Of a stretch of 64,000 nt of DNA, positions 25,398 through 59,733 are shown piece by piece (the stretch's first letter is position 1; each line of letters opens with the position of its first letter). The notes below the pieces were generated by a model, which was not told the DNA's origin, did not search any database, and saw nothing but the letters and a program-made list of their open reading frames with translations. The stretch is from Saccharomycopsis phalli (lineage: Eukaryota > Ascomycota > Saccharomycetes > Ascoideales > Saccharomycopsidaceae), in contig CP073217.1 in assembly GCA_020342235.1 (NCBI GenBank), positions 930,001-994,000 of the forward strand. Direction: 5' to 3'. The translations under genes were made by a program, and so were the position numbers.

Positions 25398-27092
25398 TTA
25401 GAAGATACTCTTCAACTTTGCAAACACCTGCGAACGTCTCTTCTCGTGCTTCACCAACTTCTCCTCAATGGTCTTGGCCATGTTCTTTTCCTCTGTAGCA
25501 GTAGCCTCCTCGATTGGCGCAACCTTGGCGTCTTTAATCTCCTCAGCAGCAGCAGCTCCAGTCTCCTCAGCCACTTCTGGCTTCTCCTCCTTGGCCATGG
25601 AAACTTCCTCCTTGGCCTCGGCCTCAGCCTCAGCAGCTGGGTCCAATGTCACTGGAGTCTCCTCATTGGCAACAGTGTCCTCAACCTTCTTGACTTCCTT
25701 CACCTTTGGCGCGCCCTTCTCCTTGTGAGTCACGTGGGATCCGGCGCCGAAAAGCGAGAGCCGCTTCTTGGCCTTTTTGAAGAGATCTTCCTTCTGCTTC
25801 TTTGCGTCCTTCTTGGCGTCCTCCACTGGTGCCTCAGCTGGAGTCTCAACGGCACCGGCAACTGGCTCAGCCTCCTTGACTGGTTCAGGCTCCATGGTTG
25901 GCGCAACCTCCTTGGTAGTCTCCATTTCTTCTTTGGCGACTTCTGGTACAGCCGCTGGTTCCTCGCTAACGACATCCTTGATCTCAGCAACTGGCTCTTC
26001 AACTGGAGCAACTTCTTCGGTCTTGGCGACAACTGACTCCTCCGCAGCGACTTCCTCGGTTTTGGCCTCCTCGGTCTCCATAGTGTCCTTTTTGGACTCC
26101 TCGGTCTCGACGGTCTCCTTCTTGGTCTCCTTCTTGTCCTCCTCCTTCTTGACGTCCTTGACGCCAAACACAGAGATTCTTCGCTTGATGTTGGCCAACT
26201 TGCCCTTGGCGTCAATCTTGTGCTCGGCCTTGGCCTCAGTCTTGTGTTCGGCCTTTTCTTCAGCTGGAGCAGCCTCGGTCTCTTCCTTGGCCTCGGTAAC
26301 CTCCTTAGCCTCAGACTCGGCCTTTTTCTTCTCAAGCTTCTCTCTGGCCTCCTTCTTGGCCTGTTCGGCCTTCTCCTTGGCCTCCTTCTTCACCTGCTCG
26401 GCCTTTTCTTTGGCTTCCTTCTTTGCCTTTTCAGCCTTTTCCTTGGCTTCCTTCTTGGCCTGTTCGGCCTTTTCCTTGGCCTCCTTCTTGGCTTGCTCAG
26501 CGGCAGCCTTCTTCTCGGCCTTCTCCTTGTGGGCTTTCTCCTTAGCCTCCTTCTTTGCCTTGTCAGCAGCAGCCTTCTTCTCGGCCTTTTCCTTCTCGGC
26601 CTTTTCCTTGGCTTCCTTCTTGGCTTGCTCAGCAGCAGCCTTCTTCTCAGCCTTTTCAGCCTTTTCAGCGGCAGCCTTGTCAGCAGCTACTTGTTTCTCA
26701 TCGACAGCAGCATCAGCCTGCTCAACAGCCTCCTTTGGAGTCTCGGCGGCTTCTTCCTTGACCTCCTTGGCTGGCTCAGTGGCAGCAATTAAGCCACCAG
26801 CTTCTGGAATGGCAGTGCCCTCCTTGGCGTCAGTAAAGAGATCGTCTTTTGTGTATACGTTATTGACGTTACCCTTGTCGTCGGTGTCCTTGGCGTGCTT
26901 GTCGCTAATCGCCCACTCGCCGTCTACAACGTACTTGAAGAAGTTTTTAGCGCCGCTGTCCTTGACTGGGACGGTCAAGGCAAACGAGCCGTCAGCCTGT
27001 TTCACCAACGGAAGACTCTTGGTCCACTCGTCAAAAGTACCAGTGACAATCACTTCTTTAGGTCCTGCAGGCCACTCAAATGTGTAACTCAT
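25398..27092 (-). CDS. CRP1: Crp1/Mdg1-like protein with AMPK-type glycogen-binding domain and long charged repeats
   Basis: The 564-residue protein starts at ATG 27092. The first 80 residues form an AMPK1-type carbohydrate-binding fold (SYTFEWPAGPKEVIVTGTFDEW, quoted as SYTFEWPAG and VTGTFDEW; FFKYVVDGEW; NNVY). This is the hallmark of yeast Crp1 and Mdg1. About residues 135-300 are Lys/Ala/Glu helical repeats of the KEKAEKAKKEA type, a probable single long alpha-helix. The rest is acidic and Ala/Glu/Val-rich. Two short basic motifs (KRRISVFGVK, KKRLSLFGAG) and a third (KRRSQVFAKLKSIF) at the C-terminus look like one repeated phosphosite element. Family role: Crp1 binds cruciform DNA in vitro and Mdg1 acts in pheromone signalling; the in vivo role is uncertain. 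The opposite strand is also open because of composition only. Confidence 0.8.
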   Translation of the reverse strand: MSYTFEWPAGPKEVIVTGTFDEWTKSLPLVKQADGSFALTVPVKDSGAKNFFKYVVDGEWAISDKHAKDTDDKGNVNNVYTKDDLFTDAKEGTAIPEAGGLIAATEPAKEVKEEAAETPKEAVEQADAAVDEKQVAADKAAAEKAEKAEKKAAAEQAKKEAKEKAEKEKAEKKAAADKAKKEAKEKAHKEKAEKKAAAEQAKKEAKEKAEQAKKEAKEKAEKAKKEAKEKAEQVKKEAKEKAEQAKKEAREKLEKKKAESEAKEVTEAKEETEAAPAEEKAEHKTEAKAEHKIDAKGKLANIKRRISVFGVKDVKKEEDKKETKKETVETEESKKDTMETEEAKTEEVAAEESVVAKTEEVAPVEEPVAEIKDVVSEEPAAVPEVAKEEMETTKEVAPTMEPEPVKEAEPVAGAVETPAEAPVEDAKKDAKKQKEDLFKKAKKRLSLFGAGSHVTHKEKGAPKVKEVKKVEDTVANEETPVTLDPAAEAEAEAKEEVSMAKEEKPEVAEETGAAAAEEIKDAKVAPIEEATATEEKNMAKTIEEKLVKHEKRRSQVFAKLKSIF

Positions 27093-50002: not shown

Positions 50003-51119
50003 GCTCTAGGTTCGAAATGAGTGGATGTAGTGGAAACGAGTGGAATTATGGCCGTGTGGCAGTGTCTTGGTGCAGTGTTATCGAGTGGTTTCTATCCGGA
50101 GTTGTGAACAAGACAAGGGACAAATTTTGGGCAACCCACTGGAGAAGAAAATGCACACTTGGCCAATGGTGGTCCTTTCCAGACACGAAATCGCCTCTTT
50201 GGGAAAGGGAAAAGGTGGAAAATCGCAGACATTTGTACATCACCCCGCATCACAACAACAATTGTGCCCGCAATAGCGCGTCGCTCACCGCGTTCTACCT
50301 GCGCCTGCAGACCGCACCGTCCCATTTGGCAAACAAGGACATCTCTCAATCGCATATACTTCTCGCTGCTCCTCTTGGTTCGTCTGCTGAGTGTGTTGAG
50401 AGCATTTGCTTCGCTCCGTGGACAAAACTCCCTTTATGCCAGGAACAATGTCCGCAAGCACTCCTGACTAGCAACCCTGCCCAGTCGCGCACGACATTTA
50501 AACTTTGCATTGTCAACAATTCCAAATCACTACAACATCTGTCATGGCATATCCTAAAAATACGTGTAGTAATCTTCAAATATATATCCTGGAATCTTCC
50601 AGTCTTTGGTGCAACATCATTCTCGAGAATCCCTTGGCACTCCTAATTACCAACCCTGCCCAGTCACATACAAAATTAACTTTGCATTGTCAACAATTCC
50701 AAATCACTACAACATCTGTCATGCCATATCCTAAAATTAATAATACATATATAGGAATCATCAAATATACATCCTGGAATCTTCCAGTCTTGGGCGTAAC
50801 ATCATTCTCAAGAATCCCTTCCCTGAGCACACACACTTGCCAATGAAACTTTGCAGCCGTGCATTCCAGCGTCACGTGTTTGTCAACTGCCCTGTGTAAA
50901 GTACATTGCTTCTTGTCACAATTATCAGCAAAGAAACCCAGTCGCAGCATACCCAGCGCGCCACATGGTTTCGCGATAGTCCGATCCACAATGAAGCCTC
51001 GTACTCTCACAATCAGTTCAACCTTAACTGACACCAACCTGCAACAACAAAAATAATGCAACTGATTTTTTTAACTCTTCAGTAATTTTCAGATCTCCAA
51101 TCTTGAATCTCCAATCTTC
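50003..51119. repeat. Spacer containing a 177-bp imperfect tandem duplication
   Basis: Two adjacent copies, 50458-50634 and 50635-50820, both start GCACTCCT. They share long matching blocks: ACCCTGCCCAGTC, CTTTGCATTGTCAACAATTC, ACTACAACATCTGTCATG, ATCCTGGAATCTTCCAGTC and AACATCATTCTC. They differ by scattered substitutions and small indels. The unit contains no long frame. It lies between the 3' end of HAC1 and the start of the Ser-rich membrane protein. Confidence 0.85.
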
Positions 51120-52144
51120 TCATTCAAATAATACAAAGTCATCAATGTCAAAAATGGTAGCTGGCGCTGCGGGCCTAATTGCCATAACCTCAATCAAGAC
51201 ATGCCAGCTGTCTCGACGTCTAAAAAAATCTATAAATATACCACTGCTGGGTTATGCAACCGGCTACCATGAAGGACATCGTCATCGTCAAATGCGTCGC
51301 CCAAGAGATCTTGTTCAATACTCAGGCTGAAATAGTTTGGGAATTCCGATTTCACAGTAATGTTACTCTCAAATTCCGAAGAAGGCAAAAACATAGGATT
51401 CGTTAAATTCGACAAGTACTCGTCAACACGACCCACGTCCGAGTCGTCGATCGAGCTCACTGGACTCGATCTCGACTCACCACTAAACGAGTCAGAGGCC
51501 GTTGGAGTGTAGTCGTTGCTGGTAATGTCCAAAGTGTTTCCACTGTAGCCCGGCGAATTGGTCAAGCTTTTAAACGACGAAATGCTCTCTGGCTTAACCA
51601 ATGGAGTCGAAAGTGGAGACTCTGGAAGCGAGGCAATGCCCAGATTGTCGGCCGGGTTATTGTCCGTCTCCTGAGCAGGTCTGGCGACTGATTCCTTGAC
51701 GGCCTTTTTGGCTGGCTTCTTGATCTCAAGAGAGTTGGAATCAACTGCGCCTTCTGGAGTAGAGCATCGAGTGAATTTCTCATCGTCGCCGCCATCCATG
51801 GACATTGGCTGAGTCAACTCAATCTCTGGAATTGGCTCCTCGTTCAACACGGAAAGATCAACATCAGAAGGAACATCGGCGCCCATTTTCTTGATGGTCT
51901 CCAATAACTTGTCAGTCAATTTCATCAAACGACTCTCTTTGGACTTGTGCGCCTTGATGTTGTTTTCCAACTTGTGTACTGAGCTTTCTAAAAATTCAAC
52001 GTGCTTGCGCTTCTTCTCTCTAGAGGCGTGAGCTGCTCTTCTGTTTCTGAGGATTCTTTCAATGCGTCTTTGCTCCTTCTCCTCTTGGGTCTTGGCCCGT
52101 TTTCTAGGAGGCAAAGTGCTGGTGATTTGTGGCAAGTCGCTCAT
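51120..52144 (-). CDS. HAC1: Unfolded-protein-response bZIP factor Hac1 with predicted Ire1 intron
   Basis: ATG is at 52144. The bZIP basic region (residues 26-48, NRRAAHASREKKR) preceded by LPPRKRAKT is the Hac1 signature, followed by a leucine zipper and an acidic Ser/Pro-rich tail. The unspliced frame ends at 51230 (304 residues, ending NPAVVYL). Two Ire1-type sites, CAG|CAGT (cut 51247/51246) and CCG|CAGC (cut 51170/51169), sit in 7-nt loops. Joining them removes 77 nt and gives a 315-residue protein whose last residues become NPAAPATIFDIDDFVLFE, stopping at 51120. Family role: activator of ER chaperone and folding genes, made active by Ire1 cleavage and tRNA ligase. The upstream 45 open codons lack ATG. 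The upstream gap of 3.7 kb is the longest in the window. Confidence 0.9.
51170..51246 (-). other. Predicted 77-nt non-spliceosomal (Ire1) intron of HAC1
   Basis: Both borders match the CNG|CNGN loop rule known from HAC1 and XBP1. The 5' loop CAGCAGT is closed by ACC/GGT and the 3' loop CCGCAGC by GGC/GCC. The intron has no GT donor and carries the stop codon of the unspliced frame (51230-51232). Inside it, AGCTGGC (51209-51203) could pair with GCCAGCT (51165-51159) in the downstream exon. Confidence 0.78.
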
Positions 52145-55100
52145 TGAAGAATAGTAAAAGTAAATATAAATACACAAAGAAAGGTAAGAAGTGAATTGAA
52201 ACGCCCAGCGAATATAAAGACGGGTGGGATCGAAGTAAAAGTGAAAATTCGGTTGTGAGATCAATGGAAATTCAATCAATATTTATAACTCCCTCACCTA
52301 GTATCTGTCGATTCGTAGAGTGCATAGACCCACAGGCAATTAGGGGGGATATGCAATCCCAGGTACGCAACGTTTCAGGCTGGAAGACATGTGTTTTCAC
52401 ATAAATAATTTCAATTCCAAGGGGGCGACAGCCACTATGGAGTGGCGGATGGGACCACTGATGGCCATGATTTCAAATCTTAACGCGTTGCCACTGAGTG
52501 GCAATGGTACCGGCCATTTTTCCCTTGGCAAAAGGTCGCTTCTCAGCGCCACCCACGTCGTAAACCGTATCAAATACAGTCAATCTCGACCATGTCGATC
52601 AAACCTTGGTAGGTAGACACATGGTTGCAATCACAAATCAATATTCCGCTTGACGCATGAAGCTTCCTACTACTGAAAATCCTCACTCGTGTTGAAATGA
52701 TTGGCCCAATCCCAGTCACCTAATGCAGTACGGCAACCTTGCAAGGTACCTGCTAAACGGGTACTGGAGAGTGTAATTTACAGCCACCAAACGTACATTG
52801 CCCTGTTGAAGATCGCTCTTGGTCGATGGCTAGCAAGGTATAGTGTTTCATTTTTAAATCTTAACCTTGTTCCCTGGTAATTACACCGTCGTCCTTCGGT
52901 ACGGCCCTACAAAAGAAATGTGCGGGCTTCACACGAAAAATTCTCTTGTCCCTGCCCTCTGACAACCGTATTCATTCCGCAACTTTCATTGCTGCGATAT
53001 GCTGTCTGACTTGACATTACTGCACAATCACTCGGCCTTGTGCTCGCATTTCTTTTTCCCACTAGCAACAAGCACCGTGCCCAATTCGCTTAAAGTCGTG
53101 GTGCTGCGTGGCGGCAGGTTCTCGCAAAGGCTTGTATCCTCACAAAGTAATTGCAAAACGTTCACCGTTCTAGATTGACATTTATCAATGTGAAACAATC
53201 CGCAACGCTCGACTGCCGTCCATGGCAGTAAAGGGTATCAAGTACACTGACGCGTGCAGCGGCCGTTACACGCACTAAATCTTGTCTCTTGGTCTGTCAA
53301 CTAACTAAGGTTCTATCCACACTTGGGACTAAATTAGCACAAAAATAATATACACTGATAGTCGCTAAGCTCCAATAGTGTGCCTAGAAAGCTTAACCCG
53401 TCTCCTCCTCGCGCGTGTATCACTTGTTCTTCCACCATGTATGCTAACTACAGTCACATTCCGCGAGACCTAGACATGGCTGTACAAAGTGCCGGGATAA
53501 TGTAACACTGCCAAAATGGGGAATATTACTCTGTATACACACAAAGTTCACCTGCATGAACTCCAGGTGTGATATAACAATAGGTATTAATAGCCGTTGG
53601 ACTTGGCCTGCGACTATGCTGCTTGCATATAGACAAATGAAATATTTGTTTCGAAAGCTTCCCTAGATCCAGGCTAATTTCTAGAACGATCCAGCTTCAT
53701 CCTCACCGAGGCAGGCATCCCATTGTGGCTACACTCCAAAGCTTATCCGTCAATCTCAGACACTGTTCCACATCTACCTCAAATAATTGACCAACATTTC
53801 CACTGGAAACTCAACGTGAGACATTTCAATTCACGTACTTCCAAACACCACACCGGGTCTTTTGTATAGAGACTGCTAGCTGTTTCTCGCCTAAACCTAA
53901 TTCATCAACTCTAACCTCTTCAGCAGGTAGTCAGATTCCCATGCTCTGCGAGCTCGCATGATGACTTGGTATGTATTTCTGCTTTGAGAATAGCGTCCAC
54001 TGTTTGTATTCTTCTGTCTCTTTTGCTTTTTCCATTTGGGTTTTTTTTTTCTTCGGTGCAGCATCCTCCACTGTATCACTGAACATAGTCTTTCCTCTTT
54101 TGGATTTAAAGGCAAACATCACACCGTGACATCAACTATAATCTCTGTACATTCGTGAAAGTGGTACCGCTAGTCCGTTTTAGGGTCCGGGGACGGGTTC
54201 AGTTGAAGCTTCTCTCCCTGTCATACCGGTAAACCTGCCTTATTGTTTCCTCTGTCAGAATACTACAGCCTCATTCAGGTATTTAGCCGGCTCGCTTGAC
54301 AGACTTTCGCCTTAGCCTGTTTACCAGCATTATTGCCTCGAATTTCACTGTATTGTAGATTCCGGGTTGAAATGTATACACAAATTTTCTCGCTTGCCAC
54401 AAGAGATTCCGCATTTGTCACCACAGAATAAATAATTCTACATTTATGAAGTTGTTATAATTTGCTGTTGATTGGTTTGGCGAATTAGACAGACTAGTCA
54501 TACTGGACATGGTGCAAGGCTGCGTCATTGGTCTTGGTTTGAACTAGTTGTAAATACAAAAGAGACTTGAAACCTGATCTTGCGGACATGAGTCAAGACT
54601 ATACAATACATCAAGCAAGATTATACAATACATCAGGCAAGATTTATACCGATGGATCTCAGTTTGGCAGGAAACCACTTTTGACTTGGCCATTTTACAG
54701 CCTTGATTACAACTATGATTTCTACGCCTCTTGTACATGGAAATTATTAAGAAAATATTAAAAGTTGATTTACCACCTTGTGTTTTGATAAAACATTTGT
54801 GGATATTTATTTCCATGTCCCATTTGACATTCCTATCACGTTATTTCCCGCAGTAAAGATAAAACTTGCCCTCTTTTACTCAACGACAGCATTGGTAATA
54901 TCACAAATAGGTAAGCTGTCATCACTTGATTATACCGACGTGAATCATGAATTACTTCACAACAGTTGTAGTTAATGTGTAATGCGTAAGTGACTTTAGT
55001 CACATGTCGAACATTAGTGTGGAACAAGTCACCACGAGTTAATCAGTGCCAACTGAATGAATAAAATAAATATCTGAAAATAAAAGCCCAATAAGATAAG

Positions 55101-58708: not shown

Positions 58709-59733
58709 ATGGCTGAATCAGAGAATATTGAGAGTGAGTTGACCAAGGAGGAGAAGCTTGAGGCGGCTAGAAAGAAGGTGAGTAGGACTGGGTTTGGGCT
58801 GGCTAACGGTAGTTTGAGAAGTTGAAGAAGAAGAGCAAGAAGAAGGGCAAGAAGGAAGCCAAAGGAGATGAGGAGAAGGTGGAAGCTAAAGTAGACAAGG
58901 AGGAGGCTAAAGTAGAGGAAGAAGCCAAAGGAGAAGCCAAAGGAGAAGCCAAAGGAGAAGCCAAAGGAGAAGCCAAAGGAGAAGCCAAAGGAGAAGCCAA
59001 AGGAGAAGCCAAAGGAGAAGCCAAAGGAGAAGCCAAAGGAGAAGCCAAAGGAGAAGCCAAAGGAGAAGCCAAAGGAGAAGCCAAAGGAGAAGCCAAAGGA
59101 GAGAGCAAGACCAAAGTTGGTGAAAAGTCAACCAAGGAAATCCCCAATGCAAAAAACGTCGAGGATAAAACCACTGGTGCAAAACAGCAGATTGACGACT
59201 TGTTTGCCAATGACGAAAACAATACAGAGTTGGACTCCATCTTTGACAACTTGGACGTGAATAAAGAGCCAGAAGAGCCAATCAGCATAAATCCAAATGC
59301 CAACGCAAATCCAAGCTCCAGTACCAATCCAAGTGCCAACGAGGACCAATTGCTACGGCTCAAGAGCGAAAACGAAAAACTCCAGGCCTCATTGACGGCA
59401 CTAAAGGACGAAAACACCACCCTCAAGTTTGAGCGCATGGAATTGCAAGAAGAAATCGAAACCCTCAAGGAGACAATCGAGGAGTTGCGATTGACTGCCG
59501 GAAGCAAACGTGTCGACTTCCCAAAGGGCTCTGATGACGACGAGTCAGAAGTATCGCTTTCTCCCGGCCCACCGGTTATGCACAAGCGGACATCGATCTA
59601 CGGGGCGTACCAGCCACAGCACCAGCCATATTCGTACGAGCAGGTGAAGCAGGAGTTGGAAAAGTGGAAGAACTGGGACTTGGATATGCGCCAATGGCGG
59701 TCGGTTGGGTCCGGCCCAGTGGTACAGGTGTAG
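58709..59733 (+). CDS. BUG1: Golgin-like coiled-coil protein (Bug1-like) with EAKG minisatellite, one 35-bp intron
   Basis: Exon 1 is 58709-58777 (23 codons) and exon 2 is 58813-59733. The 35-bp intron has GTGAGT donor and GGCTAAC branch site ending 5 nt before TAG. The 329-residue product opens with an amphipathic, Lys/Glu/Ala-rich helix (EEKLEAARKKFEKLKKK), as in Bug1 and GM130-type golgins. It then has 15 identical EAKG units, an acidic linker, a coiled coil (about 205-265) and a conserved-looking C-terminus, WKNWDLDMRQWRSVGSGPVVQV (quoted as WDLDMRQWRS and GSGPVVQV). Family role: Bug1 pairs with the GRASP protein Grh1 on early Golgi and COPII membranes. The name rests on the two termini. 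Reading through the intron would stop after 16 codons. Confidence 0.6.
58921..59100 (+). repeat. Perfect 12-bp coding minisatellite, 15 copies (EAKG)
   Basis: GAAGCCAAAGGA is repeated 15 times over exactly 180 bp with no substitution, in frame, coding (EAKG)15. Degenerate KVEAKVDKEEAKVEE-like units precede it, hinting at the seed from which it expanded. Confidence 0.97.

Follow-up and report, generated by a model that had tools for sequence, protein, structure and literature searches.

A predicted 77-nt Ire1 intron in HAC1 of Saccharomycopsis phalli

Does the HAC1 gene in this window (the whole 64,000-nt stretch of DNA that was analysed) carry an intron that is removed by Ire1, and does its removal exchange the end of the encoded protein? 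Our analysis makes it very probable that HAC1 holds a non-spliceosomal, Ire1-excised intron of 77 nt with a swap of C-termini. This proposal was first made by a sequence-only reading, and it is supported by the likeness of the junction to that of S. cerevisiae, by complementarity between the exons, and by the presence of IRE1 and TRL1 in the genome. The kind of intron is already established; what is new is one more predicted HAC1 intron, of 77 nt.

The HAC1 gene and its two predicted endings

The unspliced open reading frame (Hac1u; 51230-52144, minus strand) encodes 304 aa, with a bZIP near the N-terminus (profile match to bZIP_1, E 5.7e-07) and the C-terminal end NPAVVYL. We take its basic region, STLPPRKRAKTQEEKEQRRIERILRNRRAAH, to be Hac1-like, and presumably the wider resemblance is to Hac1 too. 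The basic region begins PPRKRAK, the same peptide that is encoded by a HAC1 primer for C. parapsilosis listed in a survey of HAC1 introns (PMC6222058). Upstream, a TATA-like TATAAAT lies at 52281-52287 on the minus strand, as a pattern match only.

Ire1 is described as cutting CNG/CNGN or CNG/ANGN, the slash marking the cut, in 7-nt loops (stated in PMC6037481). On the minus strand of HAC1, the heptamer CAG/CAGT at 51243-51249 (cut 51247/51246) is closed by a stem of ACC with GGU, and CCG/CAGC at 51166-51172 (cut 51170/51169) by a stem of GGC with GCC. The sequence-only reading had placed both heptamers here with 3-bp stems, and a check of letters and pairs bears this out: each has exactly 3 contiguous closing pairs. 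Between the cuts lies the predicted intron (51170-51246, minus strand), which starts CAGUGGU, finishes with CCG and holds the stop codon of the unspliced frame. It separates the predicted coding parts of exon 1 (51247-52144, minus strand, 898 nt) and exon 2 (51120-51169, minus strand, 50 nt including the stop), the latter encoding the new tail APATIFDIDDFVLFE.

Excision of 51246-51170 keeps the frame, as had been claimed. Translation lengthens the product from 304 to 315 aa and replaces the ending NPA-VVYL with NPA-APATIFDIDDFVLFE. The tail has 15 residues, of which 4 are acidic, 0 basic and 3 aromatic, and its frame is open from the exon 1 stop across the whole intron. The locus combines a Hac1-type bZIP host, a CNG/CNGN heptamer in a 7-nt loop at both ends of the predicted intron, and an in-frame swap of the C-terminus on excision. 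We presume that FDIDDFV in the tail resembles FELNDFF in the S. cerevisiae tail; a peptide search of papers found no literature support for this resemblance. A tail motif has 2 matches in 127,996 codons, a count that is purely descriptive because the motif was composed after the tail was seen.

In S. cerevisiae, translation is blocked by a duplex between the 5' UTR and the intron; a duplex of this type, of at least 11 bp, was not found here. There is no convincing pairing within 140 nt of the start codon, where the longest contiguous runs are 5-6 bp (70-140 nt). Within 200-260 nt of the start codon the longest pairing with the intron is 10 bp, at 52344; it starts 200 nt before the ATG, beyond the TATA-like site. 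Ten Watson-Crick pairs are rare in shuffled sequence (0/300 in one set, 50 and 57 of 5000 in others); with G-U allowed, 10 pairs are reached in 227/300. We rejected a translation block by 5' UTR-intron pairing, as the duplex energies equal those of shuffles (268, 226 and 111 of 500 as strong).

Two stretches with repeats were observed in the same window. In the 3' flank of HAC1 (50458-50820), a unit of about 180 bp occurs twice in tandem and comprises three direct-repeat families, 80-97% identical, with a spacing of 177-185; no second place of the unit was reported in the genome. The repeat may be part of either the HAC1 3' UTR or the promoter that serves the gene at 50002-47678. Farther away, an ORF on the minus strand (58803-59438) holds 15 uninterrupted SPLA repeats and may be a repeat tract and not a gene.

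Splicing enzymes and CTG decoding

The genome (14.15 Mb in 8 contigs) contains both an IRE1 with an RNase domain and a Trl1-type ligase. The Ire1 RNase family has one match, within a 980-aa IRE1 that aligns to the solved S. cerevisiae IRE1 with E 3.2e-123 and keeps RNKYHH in the RNase domain. Its linker carries the box KRKRKRGSRGGKNKKKSK with acidic stretches on both sides, nearly identical to the S. cerevisiae counterpart KKKRKRGSRGGKKGRKSR; it is a box of the type that PMC4279078 describes for HAC1 docking. The box reported there to accompany the 3' bipartite element in S. cerevisiae mRNA targeting is present here. TRL1 is complete, with RNA ligase, kinase and CPD domains.

A further frame with tRNA-ligase parts was observed on another contig (C2, L014:2418-5300, plus strand). 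This single open frame of 960 aa comprises a tRNA-ligase kinase, a partial CPD and a TruD/Pus7 pseudouridine synthase, and over 271 columns its kinase shares 48% identity with the TRL1 of the same genome. No such kinase/CPD/TruD-Pus7 fusion was found in the literature by title or start of abstract.

From these parts we infer how cutting, ligation, stress control and tail-driven activation would proceed. Under ER stress, Ire1 would cut CAG/CAGU and CCG/CAGC in their 7-nt loops, a helix between exon 1 and exon 2 would keep the exons paired, and Trl1 would join them. The ribosome could then pass the old stop and add the acidic/aromatic tail of 15 residues, so that a weak Hac1u would give way to an active Hac1i.

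We also considered how CTG is read. CTG is little used in five genes for RNA polymerase subunits, which hold 15 CTG and 586 other leucine codons. Of the 15, 13 could be aligned to solved relatives, where they stand opposite Ser (4), Leu (1), Met (1) or other residues (7). In RPC2, 3 of 4 CTGs are covered, and all three (3/3) lie opposite Ser at conserved positions in otherwise near-identical stretches. Because of these polymerase-gene alignments we favour serine, and the sequence comparison supports a yeast of the CTG-Ser1 clade. Across 17 genes the residues near CTG codons are equally Leu-like and Ser-like, so neighbour composition did not discriminate; those CTGs in IRE1, TRL1 and a P4-ATPase that could be placed in the alignments stand opposite Ser (IRE1 602) and also opposite Leu, Val, Ala and polar residues. 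The CTG test covered the genes other than the glucanase-like gene of the window. In HAC1, CTG codons 168 and 274 both fall outside the switch.

The loop pair and the predicted RNA folds

Only the two HAC1 heptamers, among 12 of the form CNG[CA]NGN between 52300 and 50700, have a stem of at least 3 bp, and they form one in-frame candidate. When a 1000-nt segment made up of the final 300 nt of the ORF and the 700 nt that follow it was dinucleotide-shuffled, a pair of CNGCNGN hairpins arose in 0/2000 shuffles and a pair of CNG[CA]NGN hairpins in 5/2000. Real sequence served as a second control: the two strands of the window together hold 606 CNGCNGN heptamers, 12 of them with a Watson-Crick stem of at least 3 bp, and same-strand pairs of such hairpins within 1 kb number two. 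One is the HAC1 pair. The other, 26498/26630 on the plus strand, lies antisense to a Lys/Ala/Glu-rich ORF (25398-27092) and is perhaps a product of that ORF's repeats.

The heptamer CAGCAGT by itself is common, occurring at 2426 places in the genome, and its reversed control occurs at 2222. Passages of PMC6592678 and PMC6627864 give the S. cerevisiae 5' site as CGUAAUCCAG/CCGUGAU, and 51256-51240 is identical to it at 13/17 positions, the sole place on either window strand to reach 13. The 3' loop agrees with the S. cerevisiae 3' site at 8/12 positions, a match that is unspecific alone (327 places). Searches for a Hac1 homologue confirmed none in a viral collection (17 pattern matches) or a prokaryote collection (97), and Rfam returned one snoRNA match, at E 4.6 and with 17.8 bits, below the cut-off of 39.

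The predicted fold of the region does not favour the two hairpins. Forcing both gives -36.7 against -43.9 kcal/mol for the best fold, a penalty of 7.2 kcal/mol, and their predicted pair probabilities are about 0.07-0.08 for the 5' hairpin and 0.18 for the 3' hairpin. As isolated 24-mers, the 3' hairpin is the best fold, and the 5' piece prefers a form with a 4-nt loop (-1.9 vs -0.8). In the favoured fold the distal intron stretch GGUUAUGGCAAUU (51177-51189, minus strand) pairs with the exon 1 arm GGUUGCAUAACC (51261-51250), which competes with the 5' hairpin and puts the 5' cut position inside a larger loop. Pairing between exon 1 and distal intron is as strong in 200/5000 shuffles, 152/3456 window stretches and 334/3118 random places. 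Within the intron, a hairpin with a 9-bp stem and a 7-nt loop is predicted at 51193-51217 (minus strand). The 191-nt region as a whole is no more folded than shuffles (80/200 as stable), and its 121-nt core is slightly more folded (12/200). In S. cerevisiae, a search rule for Ire1 stem-loops, as worded in PMC549064, asks for a closing Y-G pair plus 4 further pairs; here both sites have a closing C-G followed by just 2 further contiguous pairs.

Short stems and an unfavourable predicted fold would fit sites that are relics or too weak to be cut, with HAC1 left unspliced and Ire1 acting without it. C. glabrata offers a precedent, as its HAC1 is reported to be unspliced under stress (PMC6116095). 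We give this explanation a small chance. By the account in PMC6116095, C. glabrata apparently lacks consensus sites, whereas both are intact here; moreover, the frame of the tail is uninterrupted and in phase, and the Ire1 docking box is kept.

The exon ends themselves are complementary. The exon 1 arm AUGGUAGC (51263-51270, minus strand) can pair with 51161-51154 in exon 2, where GCUACCAU (51154-51161, minus strand) forms the other half of a predicted exon-exon helix, and 7 more pairs join CGAUGUC (51281-51275) to GACAUUG (51149-51143). A run of 8 bp occurs in 33/5000 shuffles. With 35 nt per exon the duplex reaches -27.8 kcal/mol, which is matched by 0/2000 shuffles and by 11/2000 real pairs of equal spacing. 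At 25, 35, 44 and 60 nt per exon, dinucleotide shuffles are as strong in 2, 0, 0 and 13 of 2000 cases and real pairs of the same spacing in 23, 11, 85 and 336 of 2000; the signal is weaker against real sequence, and the region was picked after the fold was seen. By these in silico measures, the exon ends would associate by base pairing.

This helix bears on the suggestion that there is no intron at all, and that a -1 frameshift reaches the tail or a one-base assembly error splits a longer ORF. The exon 2 frame, which runs open from the exon 1 stop through the intron to the tail, would suit either event. Both would leave two Ire1 loops, a 13/17 junction match and an exon-exon helix unexplained, and the locus is single-copy in the assembly; we regard this suggestion as very improbable.

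Known Ire1 introns and a second HAC1-like gene

The HAC1 intron of S. cerevisiae is 252 nt long, and metazoan XBP1 has a 26-nt intron and an RNA 'zipper'. The S. cerevisiae intron is given as beginning CCGUGAU and ending CG (PMC6627864). The predicted intron resembles it in its 5' site, in the CG at its end and in the nearly identical Ire1 linker box of the two yeasts, and differs in its 3-bp stems and in the lack of convincing pairing between 5' UTR and intron over the 140 nt next to the start codon. In S. cerevisiae 10 residues of the Hac1 tail are replaced by 18 (as reported in PMC6116095); here 4 would be replaced by 15. Metazoan XBP1 likewise has pairable exon ends, held for ligation (in part after PMC6592678), but the ligase named there is RTCB, not Trl1. 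Cryptococcus HXL1 has an Ire1 intron of comparable size, 56 nt, reported without 5' UTR complementarity; in the same account its bZIP is phylogenetically distant from S. cerevisiae Hac1 (PMC6116095).

The closest comparison is with the CTG-Ser1 clade. A survey describes HAC1 introns in 12 species, with lengths from 19 to 848 nt and each splice site in a hairpin loop, and proves stress-induced splicing in C. parapsilosis by RT-PCR (PMC6222058). Its text names introns of 19-22 nt in C. albicans, C. dubliniensis and C. tropicalis, and newly found ones of 152 to almost 850 nt. The S. phalli gene shares with these the bZIP, the predicted loop at each site, the stop in the predicted intron and a tail that splicing would swap; it differs in length, 77 nt being more than the 19-22 nt and less than the 152 nt or more that the survey text gives, which makes the description as a size intermediate a fair one. 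The size comparison first drawn left out part of the picture, since introns from 152 up to about 850 nt had already been published for the CTG clade. No further HAC1-intron survey was found in the literature by title or abstract.

The medium and long introns published for the clade (PMC6222058) raise the prospect of a real intron with a different junction, for example a farther 3' site. We think its chance very slight, since down to 50700 there is no other CNG[CA]NGN with a stem of at least 3 bp and one in-frame candidate alone. An ordinary spliceosomal intron is extremely improbable: we found no supporting points for it, the predicted intron starts CAGUGG and ends CG, and of 9 donor and branch patterns sought in 52300-50900 only GTGAGT (51480) and CTGAC (51915 and 51495) occur, all misplaced.

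A protein search of the genome with HAC1 gave 2 matches from 4 candidates, one being the window gene and the other an ORF on contig C1. This second HAC1-like bZIP gene (L016:1165-1845, minus strand; contig C1 frame 651257-651958) encodes 226 aa from its first ATG and is identical to the HAC1 basic region at 43/55 positions. Between 800 nt upstream and 1200 nt downstream of its stop there is no C.G..G. loop with a stem of at least 3 bp, and the 5-kb sense strand does not contain the tail motif. Over 55 aligned codons, 20 are identical to HAC1, 23 differ silently and 12 change the residue, a pattern that fits selection on the gene. Our guess is that this Hac1 may act independently of stress or as an antagonist. 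Among the literature matches listed, none used the phrase 'HAC1 paralog' or 'HAC1 paralogue'.

A broader proposal joins two elements, and we hold it only tentatively, as rather unlikely. In it, S. phalli would have two Hac1-type genes, one switched by Ire1 and a second, in which we found no loop pair or tail motif, that would be permanently 'on' or antagonistic at DNA sites common to both. The 77-nt intron, for its part, may have started as a C. albicans-class intron of roughly 24 nt, into whose 5' hairpin some 51 nt were inserted. The enlargement is kept as an idea only, given that the pairing of arm and distal stretch is matched by shuffles and by real places.

In size, the predicted Ire1 intron of HAC1 would stand in the gap that the survey text leaves between very short and medium introns, and it bears on how these introns shrink or grow. 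With short stems and a competing fold, it offers a natural test, and a useful one, of the extent of hairpin that Ire1 requires. The second gene, in which no Ire1 loop pair was found, raises the question of what role an Ire1-free Hac1 may have beside a controlled one.
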